From: Lachnospiraceae bacterium
GTDB lineage: Bacteria > Bacillota > Clostridia > Lachnospirales > Lachnospiraceae
Direction of reading: 5' to 3'
Assembly: GCA_910574195.1 (NCBI GenBank)
Contig: CAJTBF010000003.1
Location: 186,001-250,000 of the forward strand
Length of the DNA: 64,000 nt
Of the stretch, positions 2,655 through 48,737 are shown in pieces. How positions within the stretch are numbered: position 1 is the first letter of the stretch; each line of letters opens with the position of its first letter. The notes under the pieces are model-generated. The model saw nothing but the letters and a program-made list of their open reading frames with translations, was not told where the DNA came from and searched no databases. Both the position numbers and the translations under genes were made by a program.

Positions 2655-4031
2655 TCAGCCGGTACCATCACCAAAATAATTAGGATCATAACCCGGATCC
2701 CATTCGCCGCCTCCGGTACCGTCACCGGAATAATCAGGATCATAACCCGGATCCCATTCGCCGCCTCCGCTCCCGTCGCCAGAATAATCGGGATCGTAAC
2801 CGGAATCCCCGCTGCTGTCCCAATTATCCGTATTATTATAATCGGTACCTGTATCATAATCCGAATAAGTATTATAATCCGAATAACTCGAACCGCCGCC
2901 CATACTTAGAATGTAGGATAAGTCCGCACTGATCTTCTTCACCGTGGAAGAAGGCATATACCCATCCTCTCCATAAAAGTAGTTATGCATCTTCTTCACA
3001 TCACTGGCCAAATCAACCGGAAGTACCGAATCCCCGGCATTTTCATATATCATTGTATCCTTCTCAAACGGAAACCCGATTGTCTCCCCCAATTCATACT
3101 TTTTCACATCCTTGGCATAAGCTAAAATCTCTGGCAGAGTAAAGTTCGTACGAACTTTAGGAAATACACGATCAATAATCAAATTCAACGTTGCCAGATT
3201 CGCCGACTGTGCTTTTTCACCAATCTTCTTCAGCACGTCTCTTTGCCTTTCCGTACGTCGGAAATCATCCCCCTGCGTGTAACGAATCCGCGCATATGCC
3301 GTTGCCTGCACACCATTCATGTGATGCATCCCCGGCTCCATAATACCTAAACTTCCCACACCGGTATTTTCAATAATTTCTACAATATATCCATTGATAT
3401 TGTCCACTTCTTCCTGATCCACTTCAATATCCAGGCCGCCCAGTGCATCAATCACATCCACCATTGCGGAAAAATCCACTGTAACATAATGATTAATATC
3501 CATATCCAGATTCCGGTTCAACATTGCTACCGCATCCTGCTCCTCTCCAAAAGAATAGGCAGCATTTGCTTTATTGTAGGATTCGTCTTTCTGTTGAAGA
3601 AGTGTATCACGATACACAGAACATAACTTCACTTCTTTCGTCTCTCTGTTTAGACTGGCAATCATGATCGTATCACTTCTGGACCCCATCTCGTCACTGT
3701 TGGCTCTGGTATCCAGTCCAAACAGCGCCACGTTCAGATATCCTGTTTCATCATAAGTCAGTTCATCCGAAATACTAAGTTTATCCGGATCCAGTTCCAC
3801 GATATCCAGCTTGCTGATCTTGCTGGCAACCACAGCAATCGCTGCAAGAACCACCAGTAAAAGAACCACGCACAATCCCAGTGCCAGCTTCACCCAGACA
3901 GACAAACCTTTCCTCCTTCTTCTTCCAGAAGAAGCCTTTACGGATTTCCGCCGTCTCTGTATATTTGCCGCACTCCTGGCGTTTCTTGCCGCACCATATG
4001 CCGATTTTGAACGTCGTGTTTTCTCCGCCAT
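2655..4031 (-). CDS. LytR-CpsA-Psr (LCP) family wall-polymer ligase
   Basis: LCP proteins transfer undecaprenyl-linked teichoic acids or capsule-type glycans onto peptidoglycan outside the membrane. Residues 1-45 are a very basic cytoplasmic segment and about 46-70 a single membrane helix. The LCP domain follows, with GLDTR, RSDTIMIASLN, CSVYRDT and YARIRYTQGDDFRRTERQRD carrying the Arg/Asp residues that bind the polyprenyl pyrophosphate. I chose the ATG at 4029-4031 because AGGAAAGGA lies just upstream; a TTG at 4079 lacks such a site. The last 75 residues are a Gly/Asp/Tyr/Ser-rich tail with an 18-residue repeat (DPGYDPDYSGDGTGGGEW), encoded by near-identical 54-bp units at about 2670-2810. 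It is the obvious candidate to attach the glycans made by the neighbouring locus to the wall. Confidence 0.93.
   Translation of the reverse strand: MAEKTRRSKSAYGAARNARSAANIQRRRKSVKASSGRRRRKGLSVWVKLALGLCVVLLLVVLAAIAVVASKISKLDIVELDPDKLSISDELTYDETGYLNVALFGLDTRANSDEMGSRSDTIMIASLNRETKEVKLCSVYRDTLLQQKDESYNKANAAYSFGEEQDAVAMLNRNLDMDINHYVTVDFSAMVDVIDALGGLDIEVDQEEVDNINGYIVEIIENTGVGSLGIMEPGMHHMNGVQATAYARIRYTQGDDFRRTERQRDVLKKIGEKAQSANLATLNLIIDRVFPKVRTNFTLPEILAYAKDVKKYELGETIGFPFEKDTMIYENAGDSVLPVDLASDVKKMHNYFYGEDGYMPSSTVKKISADLSYILSMGGGSSYSDYNTYSDYDTGTDYNNTDNWDSSGDSGYDPDYSGDGSGGGEWDPGYDPDYSGDGTGGGEWDPGYDPNYFGDGTG
2670..2810 (-). repeat. 54-bp tandem repeat in the 3' end of the LCP gene
   Basis: Two nearly identical and one diverged unit of 54 bp encode the 18-residue tail repeat of the LCP protein. 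The low number of synonymous differences between units points to recent expansion or gene conversion. Confidence 0.8.
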
Positions 4032-4070
4032 AACATATCCTTTCCTTTTTCGTTGAGAATATCTTGTCCT

Positions 4071-4099
4071 ATCATACAATATTTTTTACAAAACATCAA
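4071..4099 (-). promoter_or_regulatory. Likely sigma-A promoter of the LCP-cohesin(-glmS) unit
   Basis: On the minus strand TTGATG (4094-4099) and TATGAT (4071-4076) are separated by 17 bp, 40 bp before the chosen LCP start. The spacer ends in AATATTG, a feature shared with two other promoters in the window. Confidence 0.65.
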
Positions 4100-4139
4100 T
4101 CTCTTTCTTTCGGCACCTTGAACCTTTCAGCCTGAAGCC

Positions 4140-4171
4140 GTTACTGTGCGCGCCCGTAGGGGGACAGTAAC
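4140..4171. repeat. GTTACTGT palindromic intergenic repeat, copy 1
   Basis: The arms GTTACTGT (4140-4147) and ACAGTAAC (4164-4171) flank a GCGCGCCC-TAGGGG core. A second copy with the same core lies at 9574-9610 and a relative at 45521-45561. It lies just 3' of the acyltransferase gene. Confidence 0.75.
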
Positions 4172-4188
4172 TTGAAGTCTGTTGAAAG

Positions 4189-5229
4189 TCATCGTTTTCC
4201 TGCAATCTGTTTCCACTCTCCCATGACCTTTCGATGAAAATGATATAACATCCAGGAAAAAAATGCAATCACACCACATACCACTACAAACAAAAGATAC
4301 GAATGCAAACGCGACATGGAGGACAGATCAAATCTCTCCATCATATGCGCAATCACTACATGGTGAACCAGAAAGATAGCGTAGGAATATTGACTTAATT
4401 TTCCACATACATACTGTACTGCCCGATTCTGCAAAAAACCAGCGAGAAATACCAGAAGCACAAAAGAAGCAATCCCCACATAAGTAGTCTGAATATTGGA
4501 AGAAATCTCCGGTCTCAAAACGGCATTTCCTGCAAGAACCACGCCTGCAGCCAAAACAGCTTTTCCACGTATCTTCCATCCATATTTTACAAAAAACATT
4601 CCGAAAACCAGTTCCGGGAGTCTTACGAACACTATGGTAGAAGGCAAAACAGAAATTGGCAGACTTCCGCAAATTACCAGCCCTGCTATGTAGAAAATCA
4701 TGATTCCCGCCAGAAGTATTTTCGGTTTTTCCAACAAAAGTTTCCGCAAAACCGGAAATAGCAGATACAGCAGCACAATGAGTCCAAGAAACCATTCCCC
4801 CAGCAAATAAAATGTGGGATACCCATTGGCGCGCAAAAGACCGTCAAATGCCAAAACAGAAAAAAGAAAACGGCCTTTCGGGATTTCTCCTCCGGGGACA
4901 GCCTGATTTATATAAAACAAATAGAAAAAATACACGGTATATGCAATCCAGAACATTGGATAAATGGATAAAAACCGTTTTTTATAAAAATATTTCCAGT
5001 CACAGACATCTCTGTATACATACATCAGGGATGCCCCGGACAAAATCAGGAAAAGCGAGACTCCCCAGTCTCCCAGGTATACATTACAGATCGAGGTTGT
5101 AAGCACAGCTTTTTCAGGTGCTGGAGGATCTATATATAAAAACCTTGTATTAAAGTGTATCATCACAATGGATATCACTGCGACCGCCCGGACAAAATCC
5201 AGGTAGAACAGGCGCTGCTTCTGCTTCAT
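4189..5229 (-). CDS. Acyltransferase family 3 membrane protein (O-acetyltransferase)
   Basis: A 346-residue integral membrane protein of the acyltransferase-3 family, which O-acetylates or otherwise acylates surface glycans. It opens with FYLDFVRAVAVISIVMIHF, the classic first helix with the Arg and His of the family active site, and has about ten hydrophobic segments. The ATG at 5229 is preceded by AAAGGAG. It is the last gene of the unit that starts with the WbaP-like gene at 9342, so it probably modifies the polymer made there. The acyl group and target sugar cannot be told. The 206-bp gap to the next gene (5230-5435) holds nothing I recognise. Confidence 0.88.
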   Translation of the reverse strand: MKQKQRLFYLDFVRAVAVISIVMIHFNTRFLYIDPPAPEKAVLTTSICNVYLGDWGVSLFLILSGASLMYVYRDVCDWKYFYKKRFLSIYPMFWIAYTVYFFYLFYINQAVPGGEIPKGRFLFSVLAFDGLLRANGYPTFYLLGEWFLGLIVLLYLLFPVLRKLLLEKPKILLAGIMIFYIAGLVICGSLPISVLPSTIVFVRLPELVFGMFFVKYGWKIRGKAVLAAGVVLAGNAVLRPEISSNIQTTYVGIASFVLLVFLAGFLQNRAVQYVCGKLSQYSYAIFLVHHVVIAHMMERFDLSSMSRLHSYLLFVVVCGVIAFFSWMLYHFHRKVMGEWKQIAGKR

Positions 5230-9735: not shown

Positions 9736-10716
9736 ATGAAAGTAACTGTTATTATTCCCAATTATAATGGAAAGCATTTTATGGAACCCTGTTTAAAATC
9801 ACTTTCCAGACAAACCTGCCAGGATTTCCAGATTTGGGTCATAGACAATGCCTCTTCTGATGGCAGCGCAGCATATATGAAAGAACATCACCCGGAAATC
9901 CGCCTTTTTTCTATGAAAAAGAATCTTGGTTTCAGCGCTGCCGTTAATCTGGGAATCCGGCACGCCAGAACTCCTTATGTAATCCTGTTAAATAATGACA
10001 CCACCGTGGAGCCACATTATATAGAAGAAATGCTCCGCGCAATAGAACGTTCTCCCCGGATTTTCTCAGTCAGCAGTAAGATGATCCAGATGCATCATCC
10101 GGATCTGATCGACAGCGCAGGAGACTTATATACGCTGCCAGGCTGGGGGGTCTGCCGTGGCGCCGGTCGTTCCATCAGCAACTATACAAAATCCGATGAA
10201 ATCTTTTCTGCCTGTGCAGGAGCCGCCATTTATCGAAGAAGTGTATTTCGAAAAATTGGCTACTTTGACGAAGCCCATTTCGCATATCTGGAAGATATCG
10301 ATATCGGATATCGTGCCCGAATCTATGGATATCGAAACATGTACTGCCCTTCGGCAGTGGTATATCATGTCGGAAGCGGCACAAGCGGTTCCAAATATAA
10401 TGCATTCAAAGTAAAATTATCTGCAAGGAACAGCATATGGCTGAATTACAAAAATATGCCTCTTCCACAGCTTCTCCTGCATCTTCCGTTTCTTTTCTGC
10501 GGCTATCTTGTCAAAAGCCTGTTCTTTTTCAGAATCGGATTTGGGAAAGATTATATCGCCGGATTGCAGGAAGGAATCCACAGTATACAGGATTGCCGAA
10601 AAGTTCCTTTTCAAATTCGCCATCTGAAAAACTATTTACGAACAGAAATGCTCCTTTTTCAATATACATTTGCATATATCCGTGATTGGCTCAAACGAAA
10701 AATTTTGAAAAAATAA
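9736..10716 (+). CDS. Family 2 glycosyltransferase
   Basis: A 326-residue GT-A enzyme of the rhamnosyltransferase-like GT2 group and the only convincing plus-strand gene in the window. VTVIIPNYNGKHFMEPCLKSL and IDNASSDGSA form the nucleotide-binding half, LLNNDTTVEP holds the DxD-type NND motif, and FAYLEDIDIGYRARIYGY supplies the ED-D acceptor-side motif. A hydrophobic patch (residues about 235-260) may touch the membrane. A GAGAGGA ribosome binding site lies before the ATG. It is a single-gene unit with its own extended -10 promoter and a bidirectional terminator. It probably adds a sugar to one of the glycans of this locus; acceptor and donor are unknown. Confidence 0.9.
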   Translation: MKVTVIIPNYNGKHFMEPCLKSLSRQTCQDFQIWVIDNASSDGSAAYMKEHHPEIRLFSMKKNLGFSAAVNLGIRHARTPYVILLNNDTTVEPHYIEEMLRAIERSPRIFSVSSKMIQMHHPDLIDSAGDLYTLPGWGVCRGAGRSISNYTKSDEIFSACAGAAIYRRSVFRKIGYFDEAHFAYLEDIDIGYRARIYGYRNMYCPSAVVYHVGSGTSGSKYNAFKVKLSARNSIWLNYKNMPLPQLLLHLPFLFCGYLVKSLFFFRIGFGKDYIAGLQEGIHSIQDCRKVPFQIRHLKNYLRTEMLLFQYTFAYIRDWLKRKILKK

Positions 10717-10776
10717 AAGCAGGGTATCATGTGATCACAAAAACAATGAATCACATGATACCCTTTCTCTTTTTTC
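10709..10776. terminator. Bidirectional intrinsic terminator
   Basis: A perfect 15-bp stem (10721-10735 with 10750-10764, AGGGTATCATGTGAT and its complement) is flanked by an A-rich run on the left and a T-rich run on the right. It can therefore stop both the plus-strand GT2 and the minus-strand ChW protein that converge here. Confidence 0.92.
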
Positions 10777-10800
10777 TACAAATACAGTCGAGCTTCTCTT

Positions 10801-13800
10801 CTACCGTACTCTTTTTCGGAATGGAGTTGCCGTTTTCCCTGGCGCGGCTCCATCTTTCGGCACAATCTCAATCTGAACGCCTTCCATACGATACGCATAT
10901 CCTTCACTTCCGGCAGACTCCCCGTTCTTTGCCCAGTCCAGCCAGCCAAAGTTCTCTATATGGGTGCGGTAATACACATCGTATTTTTCTGCCATTTCTC
11001 CGGTCAGACGAATTTGAATTGCTTCCAATCGTTTTGCTTTTCCGGTTGTTCCACTGGAAGCGCCGTCGCTCACCCAATCCTGCCAGCCATAATCCTCCAC
11101 ATGTGTTTTATATTGAATTCCGCCTTTATACTCCTGATCTCTCAGCGCAATTTTAATTCCTTCCACACGTTTTGCTTCCCCTGTGGTACCGGCCAGCATT
11201 CCTTCTTTTACCCAATTCCGCCAACCGTAATCTTCTACATGAGCCTGATACTGTACCAGAGAAGATTTAAATGGAGTCTCCGTAGAACCCGGCGCGCTTT
11301 TTCCTTTTTCTACCAGGCAAATCTGCATTGCTTCCATAGCGTATGCATAACCGGCGCTTCCCGCATTCTGTCCGTTCTTCGCCCAATCCAGCCAACCCAC
11401 TTCCGACACATGGGTGCGATAATAAATGTCATAATGTTCTTTCAGTTCTCCGGTCAATTCCATCGCCACGGCTTCCACAGGCAACGCTCTGCCCTCTGTC
11501 CCGGCTATCTTTCCGGCCTCTTTCCAATCCTGCCAGCCGATATTCGATACATGGGCACGATATTTTACAGAACCGTCATATGGAAGGCTGCCTCCCAGAT
11601 CAACGGTAAATGCCTCTATGGAAAGCGCTCTTCCCACAGTTCCCGCTGTTTTCCCTTCCGATACAGCCGTCTGCCAGCCGATGTCGCGTACATGGGCCTT
11701 ATAGGAAATTTTTCTGCCGTCATCCCGCCGTTCTACTCTCTGATAGGCCCCGTCTGCTTTCTGATAGAAATCCAGAATATTCCTAGTCGCATTAAAAATT
11801 GCCAGGTCGTATTTTCCTTCTTTCAAAATCTCATCGGAAAATTGCAATAGATAATACGTATCATCTCCGGAACACAACGCCGTAATTTCCGCATCCACAT
11901 TGTTCTTATCGATTGGAGAGGCAAACCAGTCAATTCCTGTATAGTCCACACTGTTTCCTGCTGCCAGCGCATTTTCTTTCGTGTTGTTAAACAGGCCGCA
12001 TGCCATCTCTGCCGACGCAGAATTAAATGTGGTGGTTCCATAGCCTGACAGGCAAATCTCCGGATTAAAGAATAGAATCAGTTCCGCCGCAATGGAGGAA
12101 TCCACATCCGTCATTTCCAAACGTGCCAGTTGTTCCTGTTTTACAGGCCATAACCCCGTAGGCGTATTGGGATGTCCTTTATAATAATATAAATATTCAT
12201 CGCCATAAAAGATCTCTGTCAAATGGGCATAATCTTCAAAATTCGCCTCACTGTGCACATAAGTCCCTAAAAGAAGCATCGCTTTCTTGCCTTGTTTGAC
12301 TGCTTCATCAAAATACCCGTCGTTAAAGTCATACCATGCTTTAAACTGTCCGACTACACCGTCTCCCTTTGCCTGCAGCGCTGTCAACATAGAACCTATA
12401 CTCTTCGTAGTTACGGCAGCCTTCGCTTTTTCTGCAAATGCATTATTGTCCCCGCTGGTAAAGAGATTGTTTCTTCCTACCCACCACTGCGCTCCCGGTT
12501 CACAGGACAAAATCGCATAAATCGTATCCCAATGTTCATGCCAGCCCCAGCCTTCCTTTACAGTGCCGGTCTGATATGCATACTGCTTTGCATCGTTCCA
12601 GAGCGCCATCAACTCCTGGTGCGTTTGCTCCGGATTCGCTCCTGCATAGGCTTCATTAAAAATACTATAAGAAGCGGAACCGTCGGATAACAAATAGATC
12701 CCATATTGCCCCTGGGGAATTTTATTTGCGTAAATGATATCCTGGATCAATGTACAGGTAATATCATTGATATATAAATTAAATTTCGCATTTGGACTGA
12801 TTTCATATAAATCTTTCACATACTGCTTACATGCCGTATAACTTGCACTGCTCTTGATCGCACTCTCGGAAAGATAGGGCATACCATATACGCCCTCCGG
12901 GAGTTTATCCCAGTTATATGCGGACGGTCGGTCCAGCATCACAAAAGTGGGTACTTTTTTTCCTGCTGCATTCGTGTTGATATCCCATGCGGACAGAGAA
13001 AACAAAACAACCGGAAATGTGGCGCTTAAAGGTGCAATGTTATATTCTTCTGCCGTCACGCCTGTTGTCTGTGTCACGGACCTCACTGTTCTGCCGTTCT
13101 TTTCAAACTGAAGATCCACCTTGAACTTTCCATAAGTCTTAAAATCTACCTGAAAGCCTTCGCTTTTGATCTTCGCAATACTTTTTTTGGCCGTTACACT
13201 ACGCGTGGTCTTCCCGTCATATTCCAGTCTGGCCGTAACGGAAAGTTCTGTCGCCGCACTCTGTCCGATGATCTGTTCCAGAGACTCCGGCCGGATCTCT
13301 ACGGTTGTAGAATCTTCCACTTGCTGAAACGCCACATTCCACAAAGCCGGCTTATAATGATCGGCCGTTGATCCCGGCGCCGGTCCGCCTTTTGAAACCA
13401 GGCGTGCCTCCAGAGCTTCCACATGGTAAGCCCACCCCGTCGTGCCGGCAATCTCCTCATTTTTTGCCCAGCCAAGCCAGCCAAAATTCTGCGCGTGTAC
13501 ACGATAATAAACGTCATACTTTTCTGCCAGTTCTCCGGTCAGCCGGATCTGCAAGGCTTCGATGCAGAGTGCACGTCCTGTTGTCCCCGCCACAGCGCCG
13601 TCTTTCATCCAATCCTGCCAGCCAATATCACGGACATGGGCCTTATATTCAACACTACCGGATTCCCCCGCACCGCTCACCTGTATCTTCAATGCTTCCA
13701 CACTTAAATTTCGTCCTGTGGTTCCGGCCATCGCCCCGTCTTTTACTTCCTGCTGCCAGCCAATATCACGGACATGGGTGGAATATACCAGAGAGAGATT

Positions 13801-14151
13801 TTGTCCGGCAGCCGCGTCTGCAGGTGTAACCGAAACAGAGTCCTCCACAATTTCCCCTTCTGTCCCGCCCGGATTCGATACATCCGGAAGCGTACCGTTT
13901 CCTTCCGTACCGCTGCCAAAACCCTGTAATGTACCGTCCCCCGTACCGGCATCTGCTCCGTCTTCCTGCCCGCCTCCTGCCGGCGCGCTGTCATCCTGCG
14001 CCGGCGGTTCCGTCTGGTCTGTGTCTTCTGTCCGCGCGTCCCCGGCGGACGGCACTATATCCTCCGCCATACTCAGGCTACTGTTTCCCAACAGCAAAGC
14101 GCCCGTACATAGAAGCGCAAGAAGCCGTTTCCATTTTTTCACACGTTTCAT
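10801..14151 (-). CDS. Secreted ChW-repeat protein with a GT80-like (sialyltransferase-like) central domain
   Basis: A 1116-residue exported protein: signal peptide 1-29, Pro/Gly/Asp-rich linker 30-115, three ChW repeats (about 120-252), a beta-rich domain (270-370), a central domain (400-795), then six more ChW repeats (815-1116). From memory of Pasteurella PmST1, the central domain shows three GT80 landmarks in order: LLSDGSASY at 487-495 (PmST1 YDDGSAEY, with the catalytic Asp matching D490), YYYKGHP at 655-661 (PmST1 FFKGHP, catalytic His = H660) and SGYGTTTFNSAS at 702-713 (the Ser/Thr motif that grips the CMP phosphate). LLLGTYVHSEANFED and FFNPEICLSG also follow PmST1 spacing. The first Asp of the DDG motif is Ser here. 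A glycosyltransferase outside the cell lacks an obvious nucleotide-sugar supply, so the true reaction is open. Single gene with its own promoter. Confidence 0.8.
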   Translation of the reverse strand: MKRVKKWKRLLALLCTGALLLGNSSLSMAEDIVPSAGDARTEDTDQTEPPAQDDSAPAGGGQEDGADAGTGDGTLQGFGSGTEGNGTLPDVSNPGGTEGEIVEDSVSVTPADAAAGQNLSLVYSTHVRDIGWQQEVKDGAMAGTTGRNLSVEALKIQVSGAGESGSVEYKAHVRDIGWQDWMKDGAVAGTTGRALCIEALQIRLTGELAEKYDVYYRVHAQNFGWLGWAKNEEIAGTTGWAYHVEALEARLVSKGGPAPGSTADHYKPALWNVAFQQVEDSTTVEIRPESLEQIIGQSAATELSVTARLEYDGKTTRSVTAKKSIAKIKSEGFQVDFKTYGKFKVDLQFEKNGRTVRSVTQTTGVTAEEYNIAPLSATFPVVLFSLSAWDINTNAAGKKVPTFVMLDRPSAYNWDKLPEGVYGMPYLSESAIKSSASYTACKQYVKDLYEISPNAKFNLYINDITCTLIQDIIYANKIPQGQYGIYLLSDGSASYSIFNEAYAGANPEQTHQELMALWNDAKQYAYQTGTVKEGWGWHEHWDTIYAILSCEPGAQWWVGRNNLFTSGDNNAFAEKAKAAVTTKSIGSMLTALQAKGDGVVGQFKAWYDFNDGYFDEAVKQGKKAMLLLGTYVHSEANFEDYAHLTEIFYGDEYLYYYKGHPNTPTGLWPVKQEQLARLEMTDVDSSIAAELILFFNPEICLSGYGTTTFNSASAEMACGLFNNTKENALAAGNSVDYTGIDWFASPIDKNNVDAEITALCSGDDTYYLLQFSDEILKEGKYDLAIFNATRNILDFYQKADGAYQRVERRDDGRKISYKAHVRDIGWQTAVSEGKTAGTVGRALSIEAFTVDLGGSLPYDGSVKYRAHVSNIGWQDWKEAGKIAGTEGRALPVEAVAMELTGELKEHYDIYYRTHVSEVGWLDWAKNGQNAGSAGYAYAMEAMQICLVEKGKSAPGSTETPFKSSLVQYQAHVEDYGWRNWVKEGMLAGTTGEAKRVEGIKIALRDQEYKGGIQYKTHVEDYGWQDWVSDGASSGTTGKAKRLEAIQIRLTGEMAEKYDVYYRTHIENFGWLDWAKNGESAGSEGYAYRMEGVQIEIVPKDGAAPGKTATPFRKRVR

Positions 14152-14318: not shown

Positions 14319-15398
14319 CTATCCCGCATAAAAAGCCTGGAATTGTTCCGGATTATCAATCCCATAATCCCGGTAATTAAAAGATTCTCTGTGCTTTGCA
14401 ATCTTTTCATACCAGCCTGAAATCCGTGTCATGGCCGGAGTCGCCACGCCCGCAAACTCCCCGATCTGCCGGAGAATTGACAAACCATAGGAGAAATCCG
14501 CCGTAAAATACCGGGAATCCAGATCCGGAATATAACCTCCGTCTTTTGGAACCATCGGCGTTTTGATCCCCTGAAACCCCTCTATACTTCGTATCTTTCT
14601 TGTCAGTTCTTCTGCCGTATTGCTTTCGTAATGTTTTTTCAACGATTTTACTTCCTGCAAATCAAAGGCCGGCAATGCTTTACAAATCTGCTGTACTTCC
14701 CCGTCGCACTCCAGCAGCAGGAGAGAACTTTCCTCGTCCCACTCTTCGTAGAACAATGGAACCCTGTCATAACAGATTCCTTCCGTATAATTTTGAAATA
14801 GTGTATAGAGACGGGACGTGTGTATCACCGGATTAGAAGGTGTCAATGTAACATTCAGATACCCCGGCAGCTTTGCGCAGGGCATATCCAGAAGTTCCTC
14901 CATCAACGCACAGCATTCTTTTGTTTTTTTCCGTGGAAGCGCCGCGAGAAGAAGCTGTTCCCGGTATCCTGTTGCACGTACTGTCCGGCCATACGTAACC
15001 AGTCTTGCAACAGAAGGTACCCTCTGAATTCCAAACACAATCCCCCCCTTCGCAAGACATGATCGAAACGCACACTCTCCCCCGCCGCTTCCCGGAATGA
15101 GACCGATTTTCACTCCGTTTCCCACATAGGGAAGAATCTTTTCTGCAATGTAACGCATGCGGAAAGCCGGTACGGTCACAAAAATACATTCTGCCCCGGA
15201 AAATGCCTCCTCCGCATTCTCCGTTACGGAATGAACCCATCCCTCTTTCTGCACATTTCCTTTTTCATCCACAATCGTCAGATGTTTCTGAAACTCCTGG
15301 AAATGAGGGGTATATATAGAAACCTGATGCCCTTTTGCGGCACAATGCACCGCAAATTGTGTTCCGACATTCCCGCCGCCGACAATCGTAATTTTCAT
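14319..15398 (-). CDS. NAD(P)-dependent opine (octopine/nopaline) dehydrogenase family protein
   Basis: A 359-residue dehydrogenase homologue. MKITIVGGGNVGTQFAVHCA gives the dinucleotide-binding Rossmann GxGxxG, ECIFVTVPAFRM follows the family pattern, and the C-terminal helical domain contains NPVIHTSRLY with the His typical of octopine-dehydrogenase catalytic sites. Opine dehydrogenases reductively join an amino acid amine to a 2-oxo acid. Such N-(1-carboxyethyl) amino acids are known decorations of some bacterial O-antigens, which would explain its place here. I chose the ATG at 15396-15398, directly before the Rossmann strand; an ATG four codons earlier (15408-15410) has AAAGG too close. 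Substrates are unknown. Confidence 0.82.
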   Translation of the reverse strand: MKITIVGGGNVGTQFAVHCAAKGHQVSIYTPHFQEFQKHLTIVDEKGNVQKEGWVHSVTENAEEAFSGAECIFVTVPAFRMRYIAEKILPYVGNGVKIGLIPGSGGGECAFRSCLAKGGIVFGIQRVPSVARLVTYGRTVRATGYREQLLLAALPRKKTKECCALMEELLDMPCAKLPGYLNVTLTPSNPVIHTSRLYTLFQNYTEGICYDRVPLFYEEWDEESSLLLLECDGEVQQICKALPAFDLQEVKSLKKHYESNTAEELTRKIRSIEGFQGIKTPMVPKDGGYIPDLDSRYFTADFSYGLSILRQIGEFAGVATPAMTRISGWYEKIAKHRESFNYRDYGIDNPEQFQAFYAG

Positions 15399-15588
15399 CT
15401 GCTTCGGCATCCTTTCTAATCCCTGTTTTTATTCTGTCTCTGATAGTTTCCCCTATGTTCCTTTTCTCTTTCGTCCCGGAACGTATCTGAAAGCCGTTCT
15501 GCCCCAAAAAACCATTCCATGCGGGACATCCGAAGAACAATCTGAATATACAGAACTGAATCAAAGCCTGTATGATACAGACATCTAC

Positions 15589-17415
15589 CTAACAAAATGC
15601 CCCCCCCCAAATGGTTTGCAGCGCCTGAATCAGTTTCTGATTTTCCTCTTCGTTTTTCACCGCGATCCGGACAAATTGTCTTCCTTCTCTTTTAACTTTC
15701 CCGGAAAGATCTTTCACCAGAATCTGATGTTCCAGTAAAAGTTTTCTGGTCAGCTCTTTTGACGTCATTTTGCCTGTCAGCTCGGCCATGACATAGTTTG
15801 CCTGAGAAGGGCGTATTGTTATACCAGGAATTTCCTCTAACATCTCACAAAAATGCTTCCGCACTTCCCGCAGTTTTTCCAGAGACATTTCATAATCTTT
15901 CTGATATTTTTCCGCGATCTGCATATAAAATTCCGCAAACGAATTGATATTCCAGATTGCCACGTCCCGCTTCAGCCAGGCAGTCATCTCCGCGTCCCCG
16001 GACGCCAGAATTCCCAGCCGTAACCCCGGAACACCATAGGACTTGGAAATGCTTTTCACCACATACAGATGCGGATTTGCCTCCAGAACTGCCTGCTCGA
16101 TCAGGGTCGCATTCTTCTCTTCCGCAAAGTCCACAAAGGATTCATCCACAATAAACCGCATCCCCTTCTGCTTTGTCCATGCTATCAGGCGCAACATTTC
16201 TGCTTTTGGAATATAATTTCCGGTGGGATTATCCGGGTTGATCAGAACCAGCTGTTCTACCGCATGCTCCTCAAAAAAATGGATCACATCTGACGCGGAA
16301 TAGGAAAAATCCTCCTGCTGCGGCGTATAGACAACCAGTTCTTCTTTGGAATAGCGATTCGGATATTCCTCGAACGTAGGACGAATCACCCCGGTTTTCC
16401 CTTTCAGACAGCTCATCAAAGACTTAATCAGCTCTGCCGCGCCATTTCCTACAACAATATTCTCCTGATGTACATTAAAATTTTTGCCGGCAAGCAGGGT
16501 ATTTACCTGCATTCCGGACGGATACTGGGTCAGCAGCGTCTCAAAATTCGCCTTGATCTCGTCCATCAGCCGCTGCGGCGGAAAATAAGGATTCACCAGA
16601 TAACAAAAATCCAATACTTTTGGATACCGCCAATATCCCCCGTATCTTTGCTGGATTCGCTCTACCCTTTCTTCCTCATCCGGCGCGAACATGGAAGAAG
16701 CAATATCCAGATCCTGGATATCGTCAATCTCATACCAGAGTTGTCCGTCCAGACGCTTTGCCTTGATTTCCGGATCATCCAGCATGGTAATCACCCGCAG
16801 TACCTGTTCATAATACTCATTATTTCCAAGCGCTTTTGAATAGGCGTCCAGAAACGGTACATAATGGGATTCTGAAAAATGCCGGCTGAATTTATAGATA
16901 TTCACGGTTTTATAATAGGCCGGAATATCCTCAAATACAAACTTTTTCCCGGGAATAAAGTCCAGAATCTGATCCCTCTCATCAATTCGGATCACTGTCC
17001 CGTCCATCCAGTTTTCATACTGATCCACCAAAGCCAATGTCTCCCTTGGATCCTCCAGCAGAACCTCCAGCACACGATCCTCAAAAATCAGATCACTCTC
17101 TAAAAGCAGGGTATCCTCTTTTAGAAGATATTCTTTCGCCAAAGCCAGGGAATAGATATTGTTCGTCTTGTCATAGATGGGATTGTCCACATAGCAAATT
17201 TTTGTGTGAATCTGCAAGGTTTGAATGTATTCCTTTAATTTTTCCCCTTCGTATCCGATCACAATCACAATTCTGGATAAATCAAGGTCGTCCAGCTGCC
17301 GCAGCATCCGCTCGATCAACGTCACCCCATTTACCTTCACCATACATTTGGTATTATTCTGCGTCAGCTCCTTCAGCCGTTTTCCCATACCCGCCGCTAA
17401 AATCAATCCCTGCAT
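15589..17415 (-). CDS. Fusion of a LicC/PntC-like nucleotidyltransferase and a class I/II PLP aminotransferase
   Basis: A 608-residue two-domain enzyme. Residues 1-245 are a nucleotidyltransferase: LILAAGMGKRLKEL is the nucleotide loop, TKCMVKV carries the conserved Lys and LLLESDLIFED the metal-binding Asp. The form resembles the cytidylyltransferases LicC (phosphocholine) and PntC (aminoethylphosphonate). Residues about 265-608 are a fold-type-I PLP enzyme like HisC/CobD, with NPDNPTGNY (393-401), VDESFVDFAE (423-) and SISKSYGVPGLRLG with the PLP Lys at K458. Plausibly it makes an amino-alcohol or amino-alkyl phosphate and activates it with CTP. The next upstream gene is a CDP-alcohol-type transferase, a natural partner. 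AGGGAG precedes the ATG. Substrate is inferred only. Confidence 0.88.
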   Translation of the reverse strand: MQGLILAAGMGKRLKELTQNNTKCMVKVNGVTLIERMLRQLDDLDLSRIVIVIGYEGEKLKEYIQTLQIHTKICYVDNPIYDKTNNIYSLALAKEYLLKEDTLLLESDLIFEDRVLEVLLEDPRETLALVDQYENWMDGTVIRIDERDQILDFIPGKKFVFEDIPAYYKTVNIYKFSRHFSESHYVPFLDAYSKALGNNEYYEQVLRVITMLDDPEIKAKRLDGQLWYEIDDIQDLDIASSMFAPDEEERVERIQQRYGGYWRYPKVLDFCYLVNPYFPPQRLMDEIKANFETLLTQYPSGMQVNTLLAGKNFNVHQENIVVGNGAAELIKSLMSCLKGKTGVIRPTFEEYPNRYSKEELVVYTPQQEDFSYSASDVIHFFEEHAVEQLVLINPDNPTGNYIPKAEMLRLIAWTKQKGMRFIVDESFVDFAEEKNATLIEQAVLEANPHLYVVKSISKSYGVPGLRLGILASGDAEMTAWLKRDVAIWNINSFAEFYMQIAEKYQKDYEMSLEKLREVRKHFCEMLEEIPGITIRPSQANYVMAELTGKMTSKELTRKLLLEHQILVKDLSGKVKREGRQFVRIAVKNEEENQKLIQALQTIWGGAFC

Positions 17416-17527: not shown

Positions 17528-18769
17528 TTACCCGTTATAAAAGTCTTTCTTCACCTCTTCTGTAATCGCCTTTGCCGCATTTTCCTTGCCTTTCAGTAAA
17601 GAATCCGCCACCGCATTTCTTTTTTCTTTCAAAGGATCCTGGCCCCTTTGCAGCATGGAAACCGTATCCTTTAATTCTTCCCAGCTTTCCACGCAGTAAC
17701 ATCCGGCCAGAATTCCCTTCATAAATCCGTTATATGCAATCTCGGAAACACAATAAATAATGGGCTTTCTCGTAACCAGATACTCCACCATCACCGTAGT
17801 CAGATCCGCAATCAGAACGTCTGACTTCCATAATGTGGCATAATAATCCGCCTCTTTATCGTAGAACAACCGTTCTTCCCGCTCATAAACGCTTATATAG
17901 GACTTGACTTCATCTTCCGTCATCTCTCCTGTTTTTACAAAATTGTCAAACATCATGGGATGCGGGCGAAACACCAGAGAATAATCCTTTTCTTCCTGTA
18001 CCAGTTCCGGAAATTTCTCTTTGTAATCAAAAAAATGACTGCTTCCCAGATTCTGTTCTGTCGTCCACCGGGGACACCAGAGCATCCTCCAGGTTTCTTT
18101 CGTCTCCCCTTGCCAAAAAAGAGAATTCTCTGCCTCTGCCTTTTGAATTTTATCCAAAGCCGGATAGCCCAGATCGAATACTTTCTTTTGCCCTTGCCGA
18201 TACCGCTCTCTTTCCCGGTTGTACATCAACTTTCCTGCATAAGAATTCTCTGCAAAAAACAAATAAACATTTTGAAAAAATGCCTGATTATAGCAGCTTG
18301 CCTCCACCGGTTTTGTACAGGCATAGGCATAAGGCACATAACAGATTCGCGCATAATTTGCTACCACATAACTTCTGTATTCTTCCGGCAGATAATGATC
18401 ATAGGGGCGCTGATAGAATACATAATCCGGCTGCAGTTCCTGCAGAGAAAGAAGGCCGTCTTTCCCCTGCGCCATTCTCACCCGGTCTGTTCCCCCCAAC
18501 TGCCGAAAAAATTGAAGCGACTCCTGTTGGTGTCCGCCTGCAACACTTACGTCCGGAACAACCAGAATCATACAGGTAAAAAAGGGACTGTCCTGCATTT
18601 CCTGATATATCCCTTCCAGCTTATTCCAAAGCTGCGGCATCTGACACAGGAACACCACCCGGATTTTCTTTCCGCGGCGTTTCCCCCGGCGGTACATCTT
18701 CAGCATACCTTTCAATACCCGATTATTCATATGCCTGTGATAAAAATTCTTTATAACTTCCTTTTGCAC
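17528..18769 (-). CDS. CDP-glycerol:glycerophosphate transferase-like protein (TagB/TagF family)
   Basis: A 413-residue GT-B-type enzyme of the family that moves glycerol-phosphate or related alditol-phosphate units from CDP donors onto teichoic acid or glycan acceptors. FRPHPMMFDN near residue 262 is the donor-phosphate HP motif, DVLIADLTTVMVEYL (about 315-330) the second conserved block and KPIIYC the third. The first 35 residues are basic and could dock on the membrane. It overlaps the acetyltransferase gene upstream by 1 bp and is followed, after a repeat-filled 112-bp gap, by a cytidylyltransferase-like fusion. It may transfer the CDP-activated group made by that enzyme. True CDP-glycerol use is not assured, since no tagD-like gene is visible here. 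Confidence 0.85.
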   Translation of the reverse strand: MQKEVIKNFYHRHMNNRVLKGMLKMYRRGKRRGKKIRVVFLCQMPQLWNKLEGIYQEMQDSPFFTCMILVVPDVSVAGGHQQESLQFFRQLGGTDRVRMAQGKDGLLSLQELQPDYVFYQRPYDHYLPEEYRSYVVANYARICYVPYAYACTKPVEASCYNQAFFQNVYLFFAENSYAGKLMYNRERERYRQGQKKVFDLGYPALDKIQKAEAENSLFWQGETKETWRMLWCPRWTTEQNLGSSHFFDYKEKFPELVQEEKDYSLVFRPHPMMFDNFVKTGEMTEDEVKSYISVYEREERLFYDKEADYYATLWKSDVLIADLTTVMVEYLVTRKPIIYCVSEIAYNGFMKGILAGCYCVESWEELKDTVSMLQRGQDPLKEKRNAVADSLLKGKENAAKAITEEVKKDFYNG

Positions 18770-39462: not shown

Positions 39463-41871
39463 CTACTTCACAATATTCGGCGCTTTTCCGCTTCCTGCCC
39501 CCTGGAAGGCTTCCCCTTTTTTCACCAGTTTTATCTCAATCGCTTCCATCGGTTTCGCACAGCCGGAAGTTCCTGCCATCTCTCCGTTCTTCGCCCATCC
39601 AAGCCAGCCGTAGTCCCGGGAATGTACACGGTAATAGAGATCATACTTCTCTTTTGCATCTCCGGTCAACTCAATATACATCGCCTCGATCGGCAGCGCA
39701 CGTCCGGTTGTTCCTGCCAATGTTCCGTTACTCTTCCAGCCCTGCCAGCCAATATCCTGTACATGCGCCCGGTAACGGATGGAACCACTCTCGGTTGCTC
39801 CCCGCAGAGAAAGCTTCAAAGCCTCCACAGACAAGGCACGTCCGGTCGTTCCTGCCAGCGCTCCTCCGCTCACACGTCCCTGCCAGCCAATATCCCGGAC
39901 ATGAGCCTGATACACTACATCCGCCTCTCTGGTTCGAAATGCTTCTCCCAATGCAGGCGCCTGTGCCGAATCTGCCGACAACATATAAATCTGCATTGCT
40001 TCAATGGGAAGTCCATAATTCTCCGTACCGGCGGCTTCTCCGTCCCTTGTCCAGCCAAGCCAGCCGATATCCTGTACATGTACTCTGTAATATATATGAT
40101 ACCGATCCTTATTCTCTCCCGTCAATGCAATTTTAATCGCTTCCAGATGCTTTGCTTTCCCCGTAGTTCCAGAAGTCTCCCCACTGCCTTTCGCACTCTG
40201 CCAGCCGGTTCCTTCCACATAGCTGGAATATTCTACACCGACTCCCGACACCGACATCCCCAATGTAAACGCTTCTATACCAAGCGCCCGTCCTGTGGTT
40301 CCCGCAATATCATTGTTCCCCACCGCCGACTGCCAGCCGATCTCCGAGACATGCGTCTTACATTGCAGATGAATTCCCGGTTCCCGGTAATGAAACGGAT
40401 CCTGTGTACTTCCCGGTGCTGCGCTTCCTTTTGCCACCAGCCTGATCTGCAGAGCCTCCATATGATAGTTATACCCGACTGTCCCGGAATCTCCTCCGTT
40501 GACCGCCCAGCCAAGCCAGCCTACATTCGCGCAGTGTGTCCGGTAATACACATCATAATTTGCCGCCGCATTCCCGGATAATCGAATCCGGACTGCCTCG
40601 ATATATTTTCCTGCCTCCTCACTCCCGGAAGCCTGTCCGTTCGCAACCCAATTCTGCCAGCCTGCATCTTTTACATAAGTCTGATACTCTATTGTCAGCC
40701 CTTCTATGTTCTGCGGCGAAATTTTTACCGCCTTCATTGGCTTATTGATTCCCACACTTCCGCAGATCGCACCGTCCGCCACCGGATTCATCCAGCCATA
40801 ATCCTGCACGTTCGCAGAATAGGTAAGATGACTCTGCACAACGGCAGATGCCGTTCCATGATCCGCCGGAGCGCCGATCAAATAATTCATATCTACTCTT
40901 CCATCAATTCCGTCCACACTTCCGTTAGAAGTATACTGCCAGATTGCATAACTCCCCTGATAGTCGCAGCTGGAATTCCACTGCGCAACCCATCGGTACC
41001 AGTTAGAAAAACAGGAATCTGTCAGCCGTGTATTCCACCACTGCAGAAAAGAATATACCCCAACAGCATATCCGGAATTCTGAATGGTCGTACAAAACGT
41101 CTGTGCAATAGATGCCAGATCACTGCTCTGTGTACTACTGTCTTCCATATCATAGTAAACAGGAAACGAAGGCTTCCGCCCACTCAGCAATCGAAGTACA
41201 TGCTGCGCCTCACTCTGTGCCATTGCAGTATTTCTTGCATAAGAGTACAGATACACACCGTAGGGAATTCCCAAACGTTCACATTCCGAGACGTTCCGCA
41301 GCCACTGCTTGTCATCCTGACTACTGAAGTTACTGCCATAACCACATCGGATCATTACAAAATCAATCCCCGCCGCTTTTACTTTTTCCCAGTCAATTGT
41401 ACCTTGATGCTCGCTGACGTCAATCCCTGTCTTGGTTGCATTGGATGCGCGCACCGCATTCTTCCTTTTGATCCCCGTCTCAATCTCCAGAAGTTCTCCG
41501 TCCTTATAACGCCAGCTGTTGGCCCGGTCTCCCACCTGAGGTTCGTTGGGATCATTTTCCTGAATATCTGACTCCCCCTGCGGCGACTCTGTGAGTTCCC
41601 CTGTCGACGCAGACGCGGCGGGTGTACTGTTCTCCTGTTGTATTTCTCCCGTCACAGACTCCTGCGGCACATCGGTTGGATTCTCTTCCACGGTTTCTGC
41701 CTCTTCGGCGCTCCCCTCTTCTGCCGCAACAGTGTTCTCTTCTTCGTTTACCGCCGGCTCCGCCATATCAGCTTCAGCCGGTTTCTCTTCTGCATGAACC
41801 GGAATCACCCCCATACCGGTTCCTGTTACAATCATCGCCATCATTAGAATGACTGCTGTAAATTTCTTCAT
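39463..41871 (-). CDS. Secreted GH25 lysozyme with nine ChW repeats
   Basis: An 802-residue secreted muramidase. Signal peptide 1-27; acidic linker 28-110; GH25 domain about 147-333 with GIDVSEHQGTIDWEKVK (D151), YYDMEDSS (D241 and E243, the catalytic acidic pair) and YAIWQYTSNGSVDGIDGRVDMNY; then nine ChW repeats (starting near 349, 395, 440, 502, 547, 593, 653, 698 and 745) in three triads. In each triad the third repeat has the DVYYRTH / GWLGWA form. GH25 enzymes cut the MurNAc-GlcNAc bond. The gene sits 26 bp downstream of the DUF2304 gene, inside the glycan locus. Confidence 0.95.
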   Translation of the reverse strand: MKKFTAVILMMAMIVTGTGMGVIPVHAEEKPAEADMAEPAVNEEENTVAAEEGSAEEAETVEENPTDVPQESVTGEIQQENSTPAASASTGELTESPQGESDIQENDPNEPQVGDRANSWRYKDGELLEIETGIKRKNAVRASNATKTGIDVSEHQGTIDWEKVKAAGIDFVMIRCGYGSNFSSQDDKQWLRNVSECERLGIPYGVYLYSYARNTAMAQSEAQHVLRLLSGRKPSFPVYYDMEDSSTQSSDLASIAQTFCTTIQNSGYAVGVYSFLQWWNTRLTDSCFSNWYRWVAQWNSSCDYQGSYAIWQYTSNGSVDGIDGRVDMNYLIGAPADHGTASAVVQSHLTYSANVQDYGWMNPVADGAICGSVGINKPMKAVKISPQNIEGLTIEYQTYVKDAGWQNWVANGQASGSEEAGKYIEAVRIRLSGNAAANYDVYYRTHCANVGWLGWAVNGGDSGTVGYNYHMEALQIRLVAKGSAAPGSTQDPFHYREPGIHLQCKTHVSEIGWQSAVGNNDIAGTTGRALGIEAFTLGMSVSGVGVEYSSYVEGTGWQSAKGSGETSGTTGKAKHLEAIKIALTGENKDRYHIYYRVHVQDIGWLGWTRDGEAAGTENYGLPIEAMQIYMLSADSAQAPALGEAFRTREADVVYQAHVRDIGWQGRVSGGALAGTTGRALSVEALKLSLRGATESGSIRYRAHVQDIGWQGWKSNGTLAGTTGRALPIEAMYIELTGDAKEKYDLYYRVHSRDYGWLGWAKNGEMAGTSGCAKPMEAIEIKLVKKGEAFQGAGSGKAPNIVK

Positions 41872-45621: not shown

Positions 45622-48600
45622 CTATTTGGAATAGAAGCAGGGAGTGGTTCCGCTCTGCGGACCTTTCTCGCCCTTTTTCACCAGTTTTATCTCCACCGCT
45701 TCCATATGGCGGGCATATCCTTCACTTCCTGCTTTTTCTCCGTTCTTCGCCCAGCCCAGCCAGCCAAATTCACTGGCATGTACACGATAATAAATATCAA
45801 ATTCTTCTGCAAGTTTGCCTGTCAACTCAATGCAGACTGCCTCCGTTGGTTTATTTCTTCCGACTGTTCCGGCCACCGCACCGTTGGAAACCGGATTCAT
45901 CCAGCCGATGTCCTGCACGTGAGCGCGATAGCGGATACTTCCCGTATACTCCGGCCGCTCCAGAGAGATTTTCAATGCTTCCAGATGTTTATTTCTCCCG
46001 GTTGTTCCGGCCGTACTTCCATCTTTCACAAAATCCATCCAGCCGATATCCTGCACATGCGCACTGTATGTCACCGTAGTCGGTTTTCTGCGGAATGCTT
46101 CATCACCGTTCTCCAATGCGGGATTTCCCTTGGGGATTATGACAATCTGCAGGGCCTCCACTTTCAGAGCGAAGTTCTCTGTTCCGGCTTTCTCTCCGTT
46201 CTTCGCCCAACCCATCCAGCCGATGTCCTGTACATGCATTCTATAATAGAGATCGTACTTCTCTTTCTCCGTACCGGTCAGTTCCATCTGCAGAGCCTCC
46301 AGGCGTCTGTTCTGTCCTACGGTCCCTGCAATCTTTCCGTCCGTCACATAATCCATCCAGCCAATATCCGCCGCATGCACGCGATACTTAATGCCCAGCT
46401 TCGTATTGGATTTGACACTGACGGTCAGACTTTCGATCTTTTTATTCTTCCCGGTTGTTCCGGCCACCTGACCGTTACTTACCGGATCCATCCAGCCAAT
46501 GTCCTGTACATGACCTTTATATTCCAGCTTCACCGTATTGATCTTATATGTGATCAGTGTATTCCCCGGAGCTGCCGCCCCCTTTGGCTGAAGCAGAATC
46601 TGTACAGCCTGTAAAGAGTAATTATACCCTTGCGTTCCCGCCAGTTCTCCGTTTTTCGCCCAATCCAGCCAGCCAAATTCCGACACATGCGTCCGATAAT
46701 ACAGATCATAATTACCTGCCGCCTTACCTGTCAGTTTCATCTGGACTGCTTCCATTTTCTTTACTTTTCCGACAGTCCCTGCCGTGGCGCCGTCGGATAC
46801 CATATCCAGCCAGCCAAGATCCTGCACATGGGCACGGTATTCAATCCCCAGATCCGCAATATCCTGCACGCTGACTTCCAGCGCTTCCATGGGCAGATTT
46901 CTTCCGGTTGTTCCGGCCTGTCTGCCGTCCGTCACATAATCCTGCCAGCCGATATCCTGTACATGGGCACGATATTTGATTCCTTTGACGGCCGTGGGCG
47001 GCGTATCCGGCGCTCCGCTTCCTTTGGAAAGAAGTGTCACATAATTCGAACTGACATATCCATACATGCTGCCGAAATTATAATTCCCACTTGCGGAAAT
47101 TCCGGTTCTGCCTGCATCCAGCACCCCGTCGCTTTGTATCTTATAAAACCCGCCGGCTCCCTGATCCAGCAGGATGAATGCCTGTGGAGAAAATGCTTTT
47201 GTCTGATACATCACTCTGGCGGAAGTACTTGCTTCCGCACGGACATTCAGATTCGTATGCCCCGTACCCATCACGTCCTTTACACCAATGGAATATTTAT
47301 AGACTTCTGCATTCTGAAACCGCTTATCAATCAGCCATGCAATATTTGCATTTTTTTCTCCCCAGTAAGGATCCGACGCATATTTTACGTTCATACCGCT
47401 GGCCTTATTTCCCAGATATCCGCCACAGTATACTCCGTTATTGGGATTCAGATATCTCTTGGACATATAGGTTTCCGTAAATGTTTTAATACAATGATCC
47501 ACACTGGTATACGAATCCGCACTTATTCCCGGAGAAGCATCCACCGCATTCAACCCGAATAAGTTATTCTTACTCTGCGCAATACTGCTTCTGCCCCATG
47601 CGCTTTCATTCGCTCCCACACCGATTGCCAACAGGGCATTTACTCCATATGTATTCTGATAATTCACAAAAATTCCGGCAGAGTTCCACATCTTGGAACT
47701 GCTGTTTACCGCTCTTTCATGAATAACACTGTTCAATTGATCCACACTGTACTGTGTCTGACTCCGTAACGGCAGATACTGAAAATAATTATAATACGGT
47801 TCCGCACTATTTACGGCATGGCTTCTGTTTCCCGCATTGCAGTCTCTTGCCATCTCTCCGAACTGATCTCTCGTATAAAAATAGTGCCCGTCATAACTAT
47901 AATATTGTACACCTTCCCGCAAATATCCCGGCGCCGGCCCATTATCCAGAGATGTGGCATATCCGCCGGAATTGACATTCGTTGAAATATAATGTAACAA
48001 TCTTCCGCCGGATACAACATAGTGACTCAGTGACGCCGCATTGCTCATATTCAAAATCTGAACTTCCCCTGCATTCACCAGTCCAATTACACCGGACAGC
48101 ATGAATTTTACTTTTCCGTTCTCTGTCCCCAGATACAACCCGTCTGCACCGTACAAACCATTGGTATATCCCGCTGCACCGGTACCGTACTCTGTATAAT
48201 TCGTGACGGCATTTCCTTTTGTATTAAAATTGACAATCGCAGTAGAACTTCCTGACAGTGCAGCACTCCGGGAAATGACAAAGGAATGTTCCACCATTCC
48301 GTTCTCATCGGCAACTTCCGTGATATTCCCTTCCACATCCATGGATGTCACTGTCTCATCCTTTTGTACTTCTTCTGTTGACTCCTGGGACTCTTCCCCT
48401 GCCGGCTCTTCCTCCGGCTGTATCGGTTGTTCTATCTCCTGCTGATCCGAACTTTCCGAATCCGTATCCTCCGGCTGCGGCTCCTGCATCGGAACATTCC
48501 CCTCTTCTGTCAATGCAGTCGAATTCTCCGGTTCCTCCGCTACCACGATAAGTCCTTGTGAAAAAAGCACCAGGCTGGCCACAAGGCACAATGCAAGAAT

Positions 48601-48627
48601 CCGTCTGATCTTCCCCTTATGTTTCAT
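45622..48627 (-). CDS. Secreted GH73 glucosaminidase with SH3-like domain and nine ChW repeats
   Basis: About 1001 residues from the ATG at 48625-48627, chosen because AAGGAGG lies six bases upstream (a GTG nine codons earlier overlaps that site). Signal peptide, Glu/Gln-rich linker, a beta domain (about 120-290), a GH73-type glucosaminidase domain (about 300-445 with GVNALLAIGVGANESAWGRS, catalytic Glu, and NNLFGLNAVD), an SH3-like domain (about 455-545, TNLNVRAEAS), then nine ChW repeats in three triads. It hydrolyses the GlcNAc-MurNAc bond of peptidoglycan. It is a single transcription unit with its own terminator, and its C-terminal architecture matches the GH25 and GT80-like proteins. 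Confidence 0.94.
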   Translation of the reverse strand: MKHKGKIRRILALCLVASLVLFSQGLIVVAEEPENSTALTEEGNVPMQEPQPEDTDSESSDQQEIEQPIQPEEEPAGEESQESTEEVQKDETVTSMDVEGNITEVADENGMVEHSFVISRSAALSGSSTAIVNFNTKGNAVTNYTEYGTGAAGYTNGLYGADGLYLGTENGKVKFMLSGVIGLVNAGEVQILNMSNAASLSHYVVSGGRLLHYISTNVNSGGYATSLDNGPAPGYLREGVQYYSYDGHYFYTRDQFGEMARDCNAGNRSHAVNSAEPYYNYFQYLPLRSQTQYSVDQLNSVIHERAVNSSSKMWNSAGIFVNYQNTYGVNALLAIGVGANESAWGRSSIAQSKNNLFGLNAVDASPGISADSYTSVDHCIKTFTETYMSKRYLNPNNGVYCGGYLGNKASGMNVKYASDPYWGEKNANIAWLIDKRFQNAEVYKYSIGVKDVMGTGHTNLNVRAEASTSARVMYQTKAFSPQAFILLDQGAGGFYKIQSDGVLDAGRTGISASGNYNFGSMYGYVSSNYVTLLSKGSGAPDTPPTAVKGIKYRAHVQDIGWQDYVTDGRQAGTTGRNLPMEALEVSVQDIADLGIEYRAHVQDLGWLDMVSDGATAGTVGKVKKMEAVQMKLTGKAAGNYDLYYRTHVSEFGWLDWAKNGELAGTQGYNYSLQAVQILLQPKGAAAPGNTLITYKINTVKLEYKGHVQDIGWMDPVSNGQVAGTTGKNKKIESLTVSVKSNTKLGIKYRVHAADIGWMDYVTDGKIAGTVGQNRRLEALQMELTGTEKEKYDLYYRMHVQDIGWMGWAKNGEKAGTENFALKVEALQIVIIPKGNPALENGDEAFRRKPTTVTYSAHVQDIGWMDFVKDGSTAGTTGRNKHLEALKISLERPEYTGSIRYRAHVQDIGWMNPVSNGAVAGTVGRNKPTEAVCIELTGKLAEEFDIYYRVHASEFGWLGWAKNGEKAGSEGYARHMEAVEIKLVKKGEKGPQSGTTPCFYSK

Positions 48628-48737
48628 CCAAGTCCTCCTTTGTTTTTTATGCACTCCCGAACGATTTCATCCTATCATAATTTCATATCCTGTGCAAATC
48701 CAATTCATACCAAAACAAACTCTCCCTTGTTTTGGTC

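Follow-up and report, generated by a model that had tools for sequence, protein, structure and literature searches.

The GT80-like protein and its layout

The stretch of DNA analysed here (the window, 64,000 nucleotides of a Lachnospiraceae genome) carries an open reading frame (ORF) for a protein of 1116 amino acids, in which a central module resembling the GT80 sialyltransferases is flanked by ChW wall-binding repeats (Table 1). The protein starts with MKRVKKWKRLLALLCTGALLLGNSSLSMAED, which was judged by eye to be a signal peptide, and AAGGTGGGAAGAAG, located upstream of the ATG of the ORF, looks by eye like a ribosome-binding site. Pfam detected nine ChW stretches (PF07538, 422.8 bits, E 7.7e-130, over the cut-off) and listed two further families, both under their cut-offs. 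The nine wall-binding repeats of an earlier, sequence-only reading of this DNA are thus recovered, and its signal peptide agrees with the inspection by eye. No matches were found for the protein in NCBIfam or for its central part among PDB chains searched with phmmer, and promoter and terminator scans gave results at chance level.

Table 1. Features of the ORF and codons of the predicted active site (window positions).
Feature	Position	Strand	Remarks
ORF, 1116 amino acids	10801..14151	(-)	Signal-like N-terminus, three ChW, GT80-like module, six ChW; 3+6 split by eye
Signal-peptide-like N-terminus, residues 1-30	14062..14151	(-)	By eye
First ChW block, residues ~121-266	13354..13791	(-)	Pfam ChW; limits by eye
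Beta-sandwich (Ig/Fn3-like) module, residues ~267-366	13054..13353	(-)	Conserved together with the enzyme domain
GT-B fold domain, GT80 sialyltransferase-like, residues ~367-809	11725..13053	(-)	Profile and structural comparison
Second ChW block, residues 810-1116	10804..11724	(-)	Pfam ChW; limits by eye
D490 codon	12682..12684	(-)	Aligned with the GT80 catalytic base (PmST1 D141); second Asp of Vibrio harveyi DDGSAEY
H660 codon	12172..12174	(-)	Aligned with PmST1 H311, HP motif
E690 codon	12082..12084	(-)	Aligned with PmST1 E338
T706-T707 codons	12031..12036	(-)	Aligned with PmST1 S355-S356

The sequence-only reading had assigned residues 400-795 to a GT80-type domain on the strength of three motifs, SDGSASY (D490), YYYKGHP (H660) and YGTTTFNS (T706-T708). 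All three are present within these residues (12954-11767) and were numbered correctly, but the limits were too narrow and the active-site residue E690 was not named. The conserved unit comprises residues ~267-809 (window 11725-13353), since the beta-sandwich of residues ~267-366 is part of it.

Homologues and structural matches

Ten homologues, 21-59% identical to the window domain, were aligned with it (alignment A4, 11 sequences). A scan of genome contigs located three loci, in metagenome-assembled genomes (MAGs) of Thomasclavelia (65% identity, best segment), of a Bifidobacteriaceae member (40%) and of Ruminococcaceae RUG10603 (34%). To judge from these named relatives and the ChW repeats, the bacterium of the window is probably Gram-positive. 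Among the loci retrieved, L001, L012 and L014 are the window itself, and L015, L045, L047 and L048 duplicate L013, L010, L011 and L009, respectively. Three loci were excluded from the alignment after inspection by eye: L019 encodes a FliF-like protein, L035 has no matching ORF and L036 encodes a GT2-like protein.

When the PDB was searched with the profile of alignment A4, each of the 11 matches was a GT80 entry (best E 1.9e-6); a profile of eight sequences (A2) gave 11 GT80 entries among 12 matches, and one of five sequences (A1) gave none. A single member, L017, matched three GT80 entries at E 0.011, followed by an antibody chain at 0.12. Comparison by hhalign with the GT80 protein of Vibrio harveyi yielded E 0.0012 and a probability of 19% with eight sequences, and E 1.4e-4 and 53% with 11. 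Structural comparison of the domain model revealed a GT-B fold of the PmST1 type, with PmST1 and other GT80 enzymes as the best matches, as the sequence-only reading had anticipated; identity to GT80 structures was ~12-15%. PF07388 (GT38) was matched weakly by two of eight members (the better one, L016, at E 0.008 and 16.2 bits versus a cut-off of 23.3), and the remaining Pfam families, apart from PF11477 (GT80; three members), by one member each. GT52 (presumably PF07922) was not listed in the Pfam scans of the window protein and members, and none of the 50 structural matches listed bore that name.

Residues of the active site

As can be seen in the alignment of 11 sequences, D490, G491, S492, K658, G659, H660, P661 and E690 are invariant, residue 707 is Ser or Thr in every sequence, and residue 706 in ten. 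Since only 27 columns among 543 positions of the window domain are invariant, conservation of the D490, H660 and E690 motifs exceeds chance (hypergeometric P = 1.1e-4 for all three being invariant). In the profile alignments (eight and 11 sequences) to PM0188, KGHP stands opposite KGHP, the Glu of the AEL motif opposite Glu, and the S/T pair opposite Ser-Ser. In the printed 2c84 chain these residues have indices 287 (His), 314 (Glu) and 331-332 (Ser pair), and one offset of 24 converts them to 311, 338, 355 and 356; the available part of PMC4202792 names these four positions together with Asp141 as important. The Asp is covered by hhalign, which pairs SDGSASY of the window with DDGSAEY of the Vibrio harveyi GT80. 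D490 and H660, both expected by the sequence-only reading to be conserved, thus align with the catalytic Asp and His of GT80.

The first acid of the D/E-D/E-G motif, already noted as replaced in the window protein, is never acidic in the family (residue 489 is Ser in nine and Thr in two of the 11 sequences). According to the accessible portion of PMC5517516, the GT38 polysialyltransferase MhPST uses E153, the second acid, as its catalytic base, and the phosphate may be held by S339 and T340. In our view, an altered enzyme fits these residues better than a dead one, because the putative catalytic base is kept and only the helper acid is changed.

Four points were established by computation: the GT-B fold, a relation to GT80, conservation of the D490/H660/E690/Ser-Thr site and, as described below, coupling to modules of surface type. 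Assignment to GT80 proper was tried and rejected because two of its features, the Pfam cut-off and both acids of D/E-D/E-G, failed. Of the GT80 identity first proposed, the fold and the active-site alignment stand, but PF11477 was not listed for the window protein and the first acid is S/T throughout. The window domain is best described as a divergent, GT80-like branch, which very probably shares both the fold and the nucleotide site of GT80 and probably acts as a transferase of that type.

Distribution

Two matches were found among 98 relatives (the window's genome and G043), and one, the window's own, among 398 genomes of its phylum. Of 397 genomes of the family, six matched; besides the window's genome and G043, these were three not found before and one with a false match, L019. 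Among 178 genomes of the phylum of the Bifidobacteriaceae member, that member and G1221 matched; among 150 genomes of the family of the Ruminococcaceae member, that member only; and among 157 genomes of the order of the Thomasclavelia member, that member and G1495. These sets are samples and partly overlap. The GT80-like family is rare and patchy in the sampled genomes. Viral contigs contained no relative of profile A1 or of a GT80 fragment, and plasmids contained no relative of the window domain. A tree of the 11 domains with the Vibrio GT80 had no starred branch and was not used.

Attached modules and export

ChW repeats accompany the module in six of the 11 members (the window protein, L009, L013, L016/L041, L046 and L049; by eye in L013, L046 and L049). 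Other modules are SLH in L011, Big_2 in L010 and LRR_5 in L017/L042; L018 has a low-complexity tail, and no module was recognised in two of the 11. The most divergent member, L044 (~9832-11922, (-)), has a coiled-coil-like N-terminus and, upstream in the same frame, a lipoprotein-like signal, with one TAA between them in the record (all by eye). Since the link to export or surface-type modules recurs, an extracellular site of action is supported for the predicted module. The placement outside the cell suggested by the sequence-only reading is strengthened by this recurrence, but exported GT80s already exist. The Vibrio harveyi protein (WP_017817635.1, annotated as hypothetical; locus L037, positions 3095-4309 of plasmid pvh5) scores 104.5 bits with PF11477 and is probably exported, because its N-terminus is lipoprotein-like, with a lipobox seen by eye. 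The plasmid has been typed as conjugative.

Gene surroundings

The window gene sits in a surface-polysaccharide cluster that encodes a LytR-CpsA-Psr protein, an acyltransferase, GT2 glycosyltransferases, an oligosaccharide repeat-unit polymerase, a priming-type sugar transferase, a Glyphos_transf (TagF-like) protein, FdtA, DegT, RmlD and two DUF2142 membrane proteins. Flippase- and glycosyltransferase-like genes likewise surround the gene in G932, and at other loci the neighbours are unrelated genes or other ChW proteins (by eye). The ChW-bearing neighbours differ, being L,D-transpeptidase-like, NlpC/P60-like, C39-like or GH25-like by eye. This context suggests work at the surface and names no partner.

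Several further genes were noted. Two ChW proteins of the window (39463-41871 and 45622-48654, both (-)) carry GH25 and glucosaminidase domains and nine ChW stretches each. In two genomes of one genus, ChW proteins whose C-terminus resembles an L,D-transpeptidase (HSLPY...SSGCIRL, by eye; L040 3962-6199 and L041 7187-9526) are encoded close to the GT80-like gene. A protein of 499 amino acids near the LytR-CpsA-Psr gene (914-2413, (-)) matches Cohesin weakly (26.9 bits, cut-off 24.1). The product of the gene at 15589-17415 (-) combines a nucleotidyltransferase at its N-terminus with a CobD/HisC-like aminotransferase at its C-terminus, both under NCBIfam cut-offs; the adjoining genes encode an octopine-dehydrogenase-like (14319-15410) and a TagF-like protein (17528-18769). 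Because this product resembles phosphonate cytidylyltransferase-transaminase fusions, the wall polymer may, by analogy, carry a phosphonate-type substituent.

Supply of the donor

The window's genome (G000) encodes NeuB (TIGR03569, 473 bits, cut-off 400), NeuC (TIGR03568, 416 bits, cut-off 236) and a cytidylyltransferase near PseF (188 bits, under the cut-off of 206); these genes are located on contig C11 and the window on C3. Contigs C2 and C11 of this genome hold two nonulosonate-type loci (L020, L026, L029, L030 and L033), and C2 encodes a NeuB-like protein under the cut-off together with cytidylyltransferase-like proteins.

The NeuB search covered nine carriers of the GT80-like gene, with G1221 and G1495 left out, and some of the genomes may be incomplete. 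The model had no match in five of the nine; NCBIfam assigns the weak matches of G790 and G932 to DAHP synthase, and the match in G043 reads likewise by eye. PF02348 (cytidine monophosphate (CMP)-sugar synthetase) was over the cut-off in six of eight carriers, with weak, unclassified matches of 20.6-31.5 bits outside G000. The NeuB model and PF02348 also matched many of 14 control genomes (11 and nine). A general link of the GT80-like gene to sialic-acid synthesis does not hold across the carriers searched. Because the eight other carriers searched lack true NeuB, the general donor would be external or something else. For an external donor, the available part of PMC5354566 states that human serum and mucosal secretions contain abundant CMP-N-acetylneuraminic acid (CMP-NANA), which gonococci exploit by means of a sialyltransferase in their outer membrane.

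Comparison with known systems

The two-domain GT80 enzymes of Photobacterium (2z4t, JT-ISH-224, alpha-2,6; 4r83, P. damselae) are 12-13% identical to the window domain, but the window family has S/T-D-G in place of D/E-D/E-G and carries ChW, SLH or other repeats. PmST1/PM0188 of Pasteurella multocida (2ex0, 2c83; PF11477), presumably devoid of wall-binding repeats, matches just the GT-B part of the window model (from residue 101). The Vibrio harveyi protein aligns with the window family at all five active-site residues; unlike the window protein, it is Gram-negative, has DDGS and shows no repeats. Gram-positive ChW surface proteins share the signal-like N-terminus and the repeats, but their effectors are hydrolases or peptidases, whereas the effector domain here has a GT-B transferase fold. 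The gonococcal lipooligosaccharide alpha-2,3-sialyltransferase, a GT52 enzyme, belongs to a different family and to a Gram-negative outer membrane. Its likeness to the window protein is one of description, an outer-membrane enzyme using CMP-NANA of serum and secretions (available part of PMC5354566). The GT38 structure 5wcn, presumably MhPST, shows the D/E-D/E-G and HP chemistry (accessible portion of PMC5517516).

The GT80 label also occurs in the accessible parts of three papers: in a table that lists Bifidobacterium pseudocatenulatum CECT 7765 (PMC4850155), for reads of unknown bacterial origin that change over time in dairy calves (PMC6765000), and for Pasteurellaceae and Citrobacter in records from the gut (PMC8522060). 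No description of a wall-bound GT80 protein was found in the open-access literature, judged mostly by listings.

Proposed mechanism and alternatives

We propose, with a probability of about 0.45, that the module is a wall-displayed extracellular glycosyltransferase of GT80 type, built of a beta-sandwich and a GT-B domain, inverting and dependent on a CMP-sugar. After export, the ChW repeats would anchor the protein to the wall. CMP-sialic acid or a similar nonulosonate would sit between the two Rossmann halves, contacted by K658-H660, E690 and T706/T707; D490 would be the base for the hydroxyl group of the acceptor, and H660 would aid the departure of CMP. The donor would most likely be met outside the cell, in host secretions, from lysed cells or, for the window strain, as its own leaked CMP-nonulosonate, and the acceptor would most likely be a galactose-like end on own surface glycans or host glycans. 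This scheme is weakest in its choice of donor and acceptor.

Several results weigh against it. Even with the threshold at E 10, the window protein had no PF11477 match. Among eight members it gave 22.2, 16.9 and 14.3 bits in three and nothing in five (the window and four others), where the curated Pfam cut-off is 25 bits; the domain of L044 reached 24.8 bits and the genome frame of G932 26.2 bits, over the cut-off. Searched against 299 genomes of the family, PF11477 yielded two subthreshold chance matches and missed the carrier G000; among 295 genomes of the Thomasclavelia phylum a single match exceeded the cut-off, that of G932, a member of the GT80-like family, and the carrier G837 was missed. 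The hhalign probabilities are modest, with one sequence as template. Residue 489 departs from D/E-D/E-G, and loss of the first acid in MhPST (E152A) made a 300-fold worse catalyst, according to the same portion of PMC5517516. A conserved partner gene was sought and none was found, the neighbours varying between loci. True NeuB is present in only one of the nine carriers searched, the window's own, and home-made CMP-sialic acid is unlikely as a general donor. As to novelty, exported GT80 enzymes are not new, judging from the lipoprotein-like protein of the Vibrio harveyi plasmid.

The donor results suit two alternatives. One, which we regard as unlikely, keeps the fold and chemistry and changes the donor: another CMP- or cytidine diphosphate (CDP)-activated or lipid-linked unit, in place of sialic acid, would be transferred onto the cell's own wall polysaccharide. 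Absence of true NeuB from eight of nine carriers searched (G043 by eye), the position of the gene inside surface-polysaccharide clusters in the window and G932, and the S/T-D-G that separates the family from D/E-D/E-G sialyltransferases all agree with it; however, the nucleotide-side residues match those of CMP-sialic-acid enzymes, nucleotide or lipid donors beyond a Gram-positive cell require a source, and several members lie outside glycan clusters (by eye). The other, distinctly unlikely, runs the reaction in reverse: a CMP-dependent sialidase or trans-sialidase would move host sialic acid to free CMP or between glycans, feeding or decorating the cell. It does not require synthesis of CMP-sialic acid, in agreement with the NeuB results, and the extracellular position suits it. 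Such reverse activity depends on CMP, however, which would have to be free outside, and the ChW neighbours that were inspected by eye included no recognisable sialidase.

The module might also be a non-catalytic lectin or adhesin that keeps the GT80 fold for sialylated or CMP-like ligands. ChW, SLH and other repeats suit an adhesin and the first acid is lost in all 11 sequences, but D490, H660 and E690 are retained in all of them, down to the member 21% identical to the window's, and a lectin needs neither a base nor a leaving-group His; we hold this to be more unlikely still. Strongly disfavoured, and hardly credible, is a common GT-B or other fold unrelated to GT80 with look-alike motifs: the single protein is over no Pfam or NCBIfam cut-off except that of ChW, identity to GT80 structures is low (as given above) and the one GT80 sequence is matched by hhalign at 53% at best, but the conserved active site and the PDB matches described above speak for GT80.

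Meaning of the finding

Nucleotide sugars occur inside cells, and the glycosyltransferases that depend on them are expected there too. With the wall-displayed transferase as the preferred reading, a wider proposal can be put forward tentatively, at somewhat less than even odds: some Gram-positives would wear a working CMP-sugar glycosyltransferase outside the wall and remodel own or host glycans with environmental nucleotide sugars, through a divergent GT80 branch in Bacillota and Actinomycetota with interchangeable surface modules and a donor that is perhaps not sialic acid. The module is predicted to be one soluble domain of ~540 residues and as such directly testable. Marine bacteria have exported GT80 enzymes of unclear role, and the finding bears on that role because the same two-domain core recurs here. 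If the proposal is true, extracellular nucleotide sugars would be a usable resource, for example on mucosae, and bacteria would have a new route for coating themselves or the host with sialic acid or a similar sugar.
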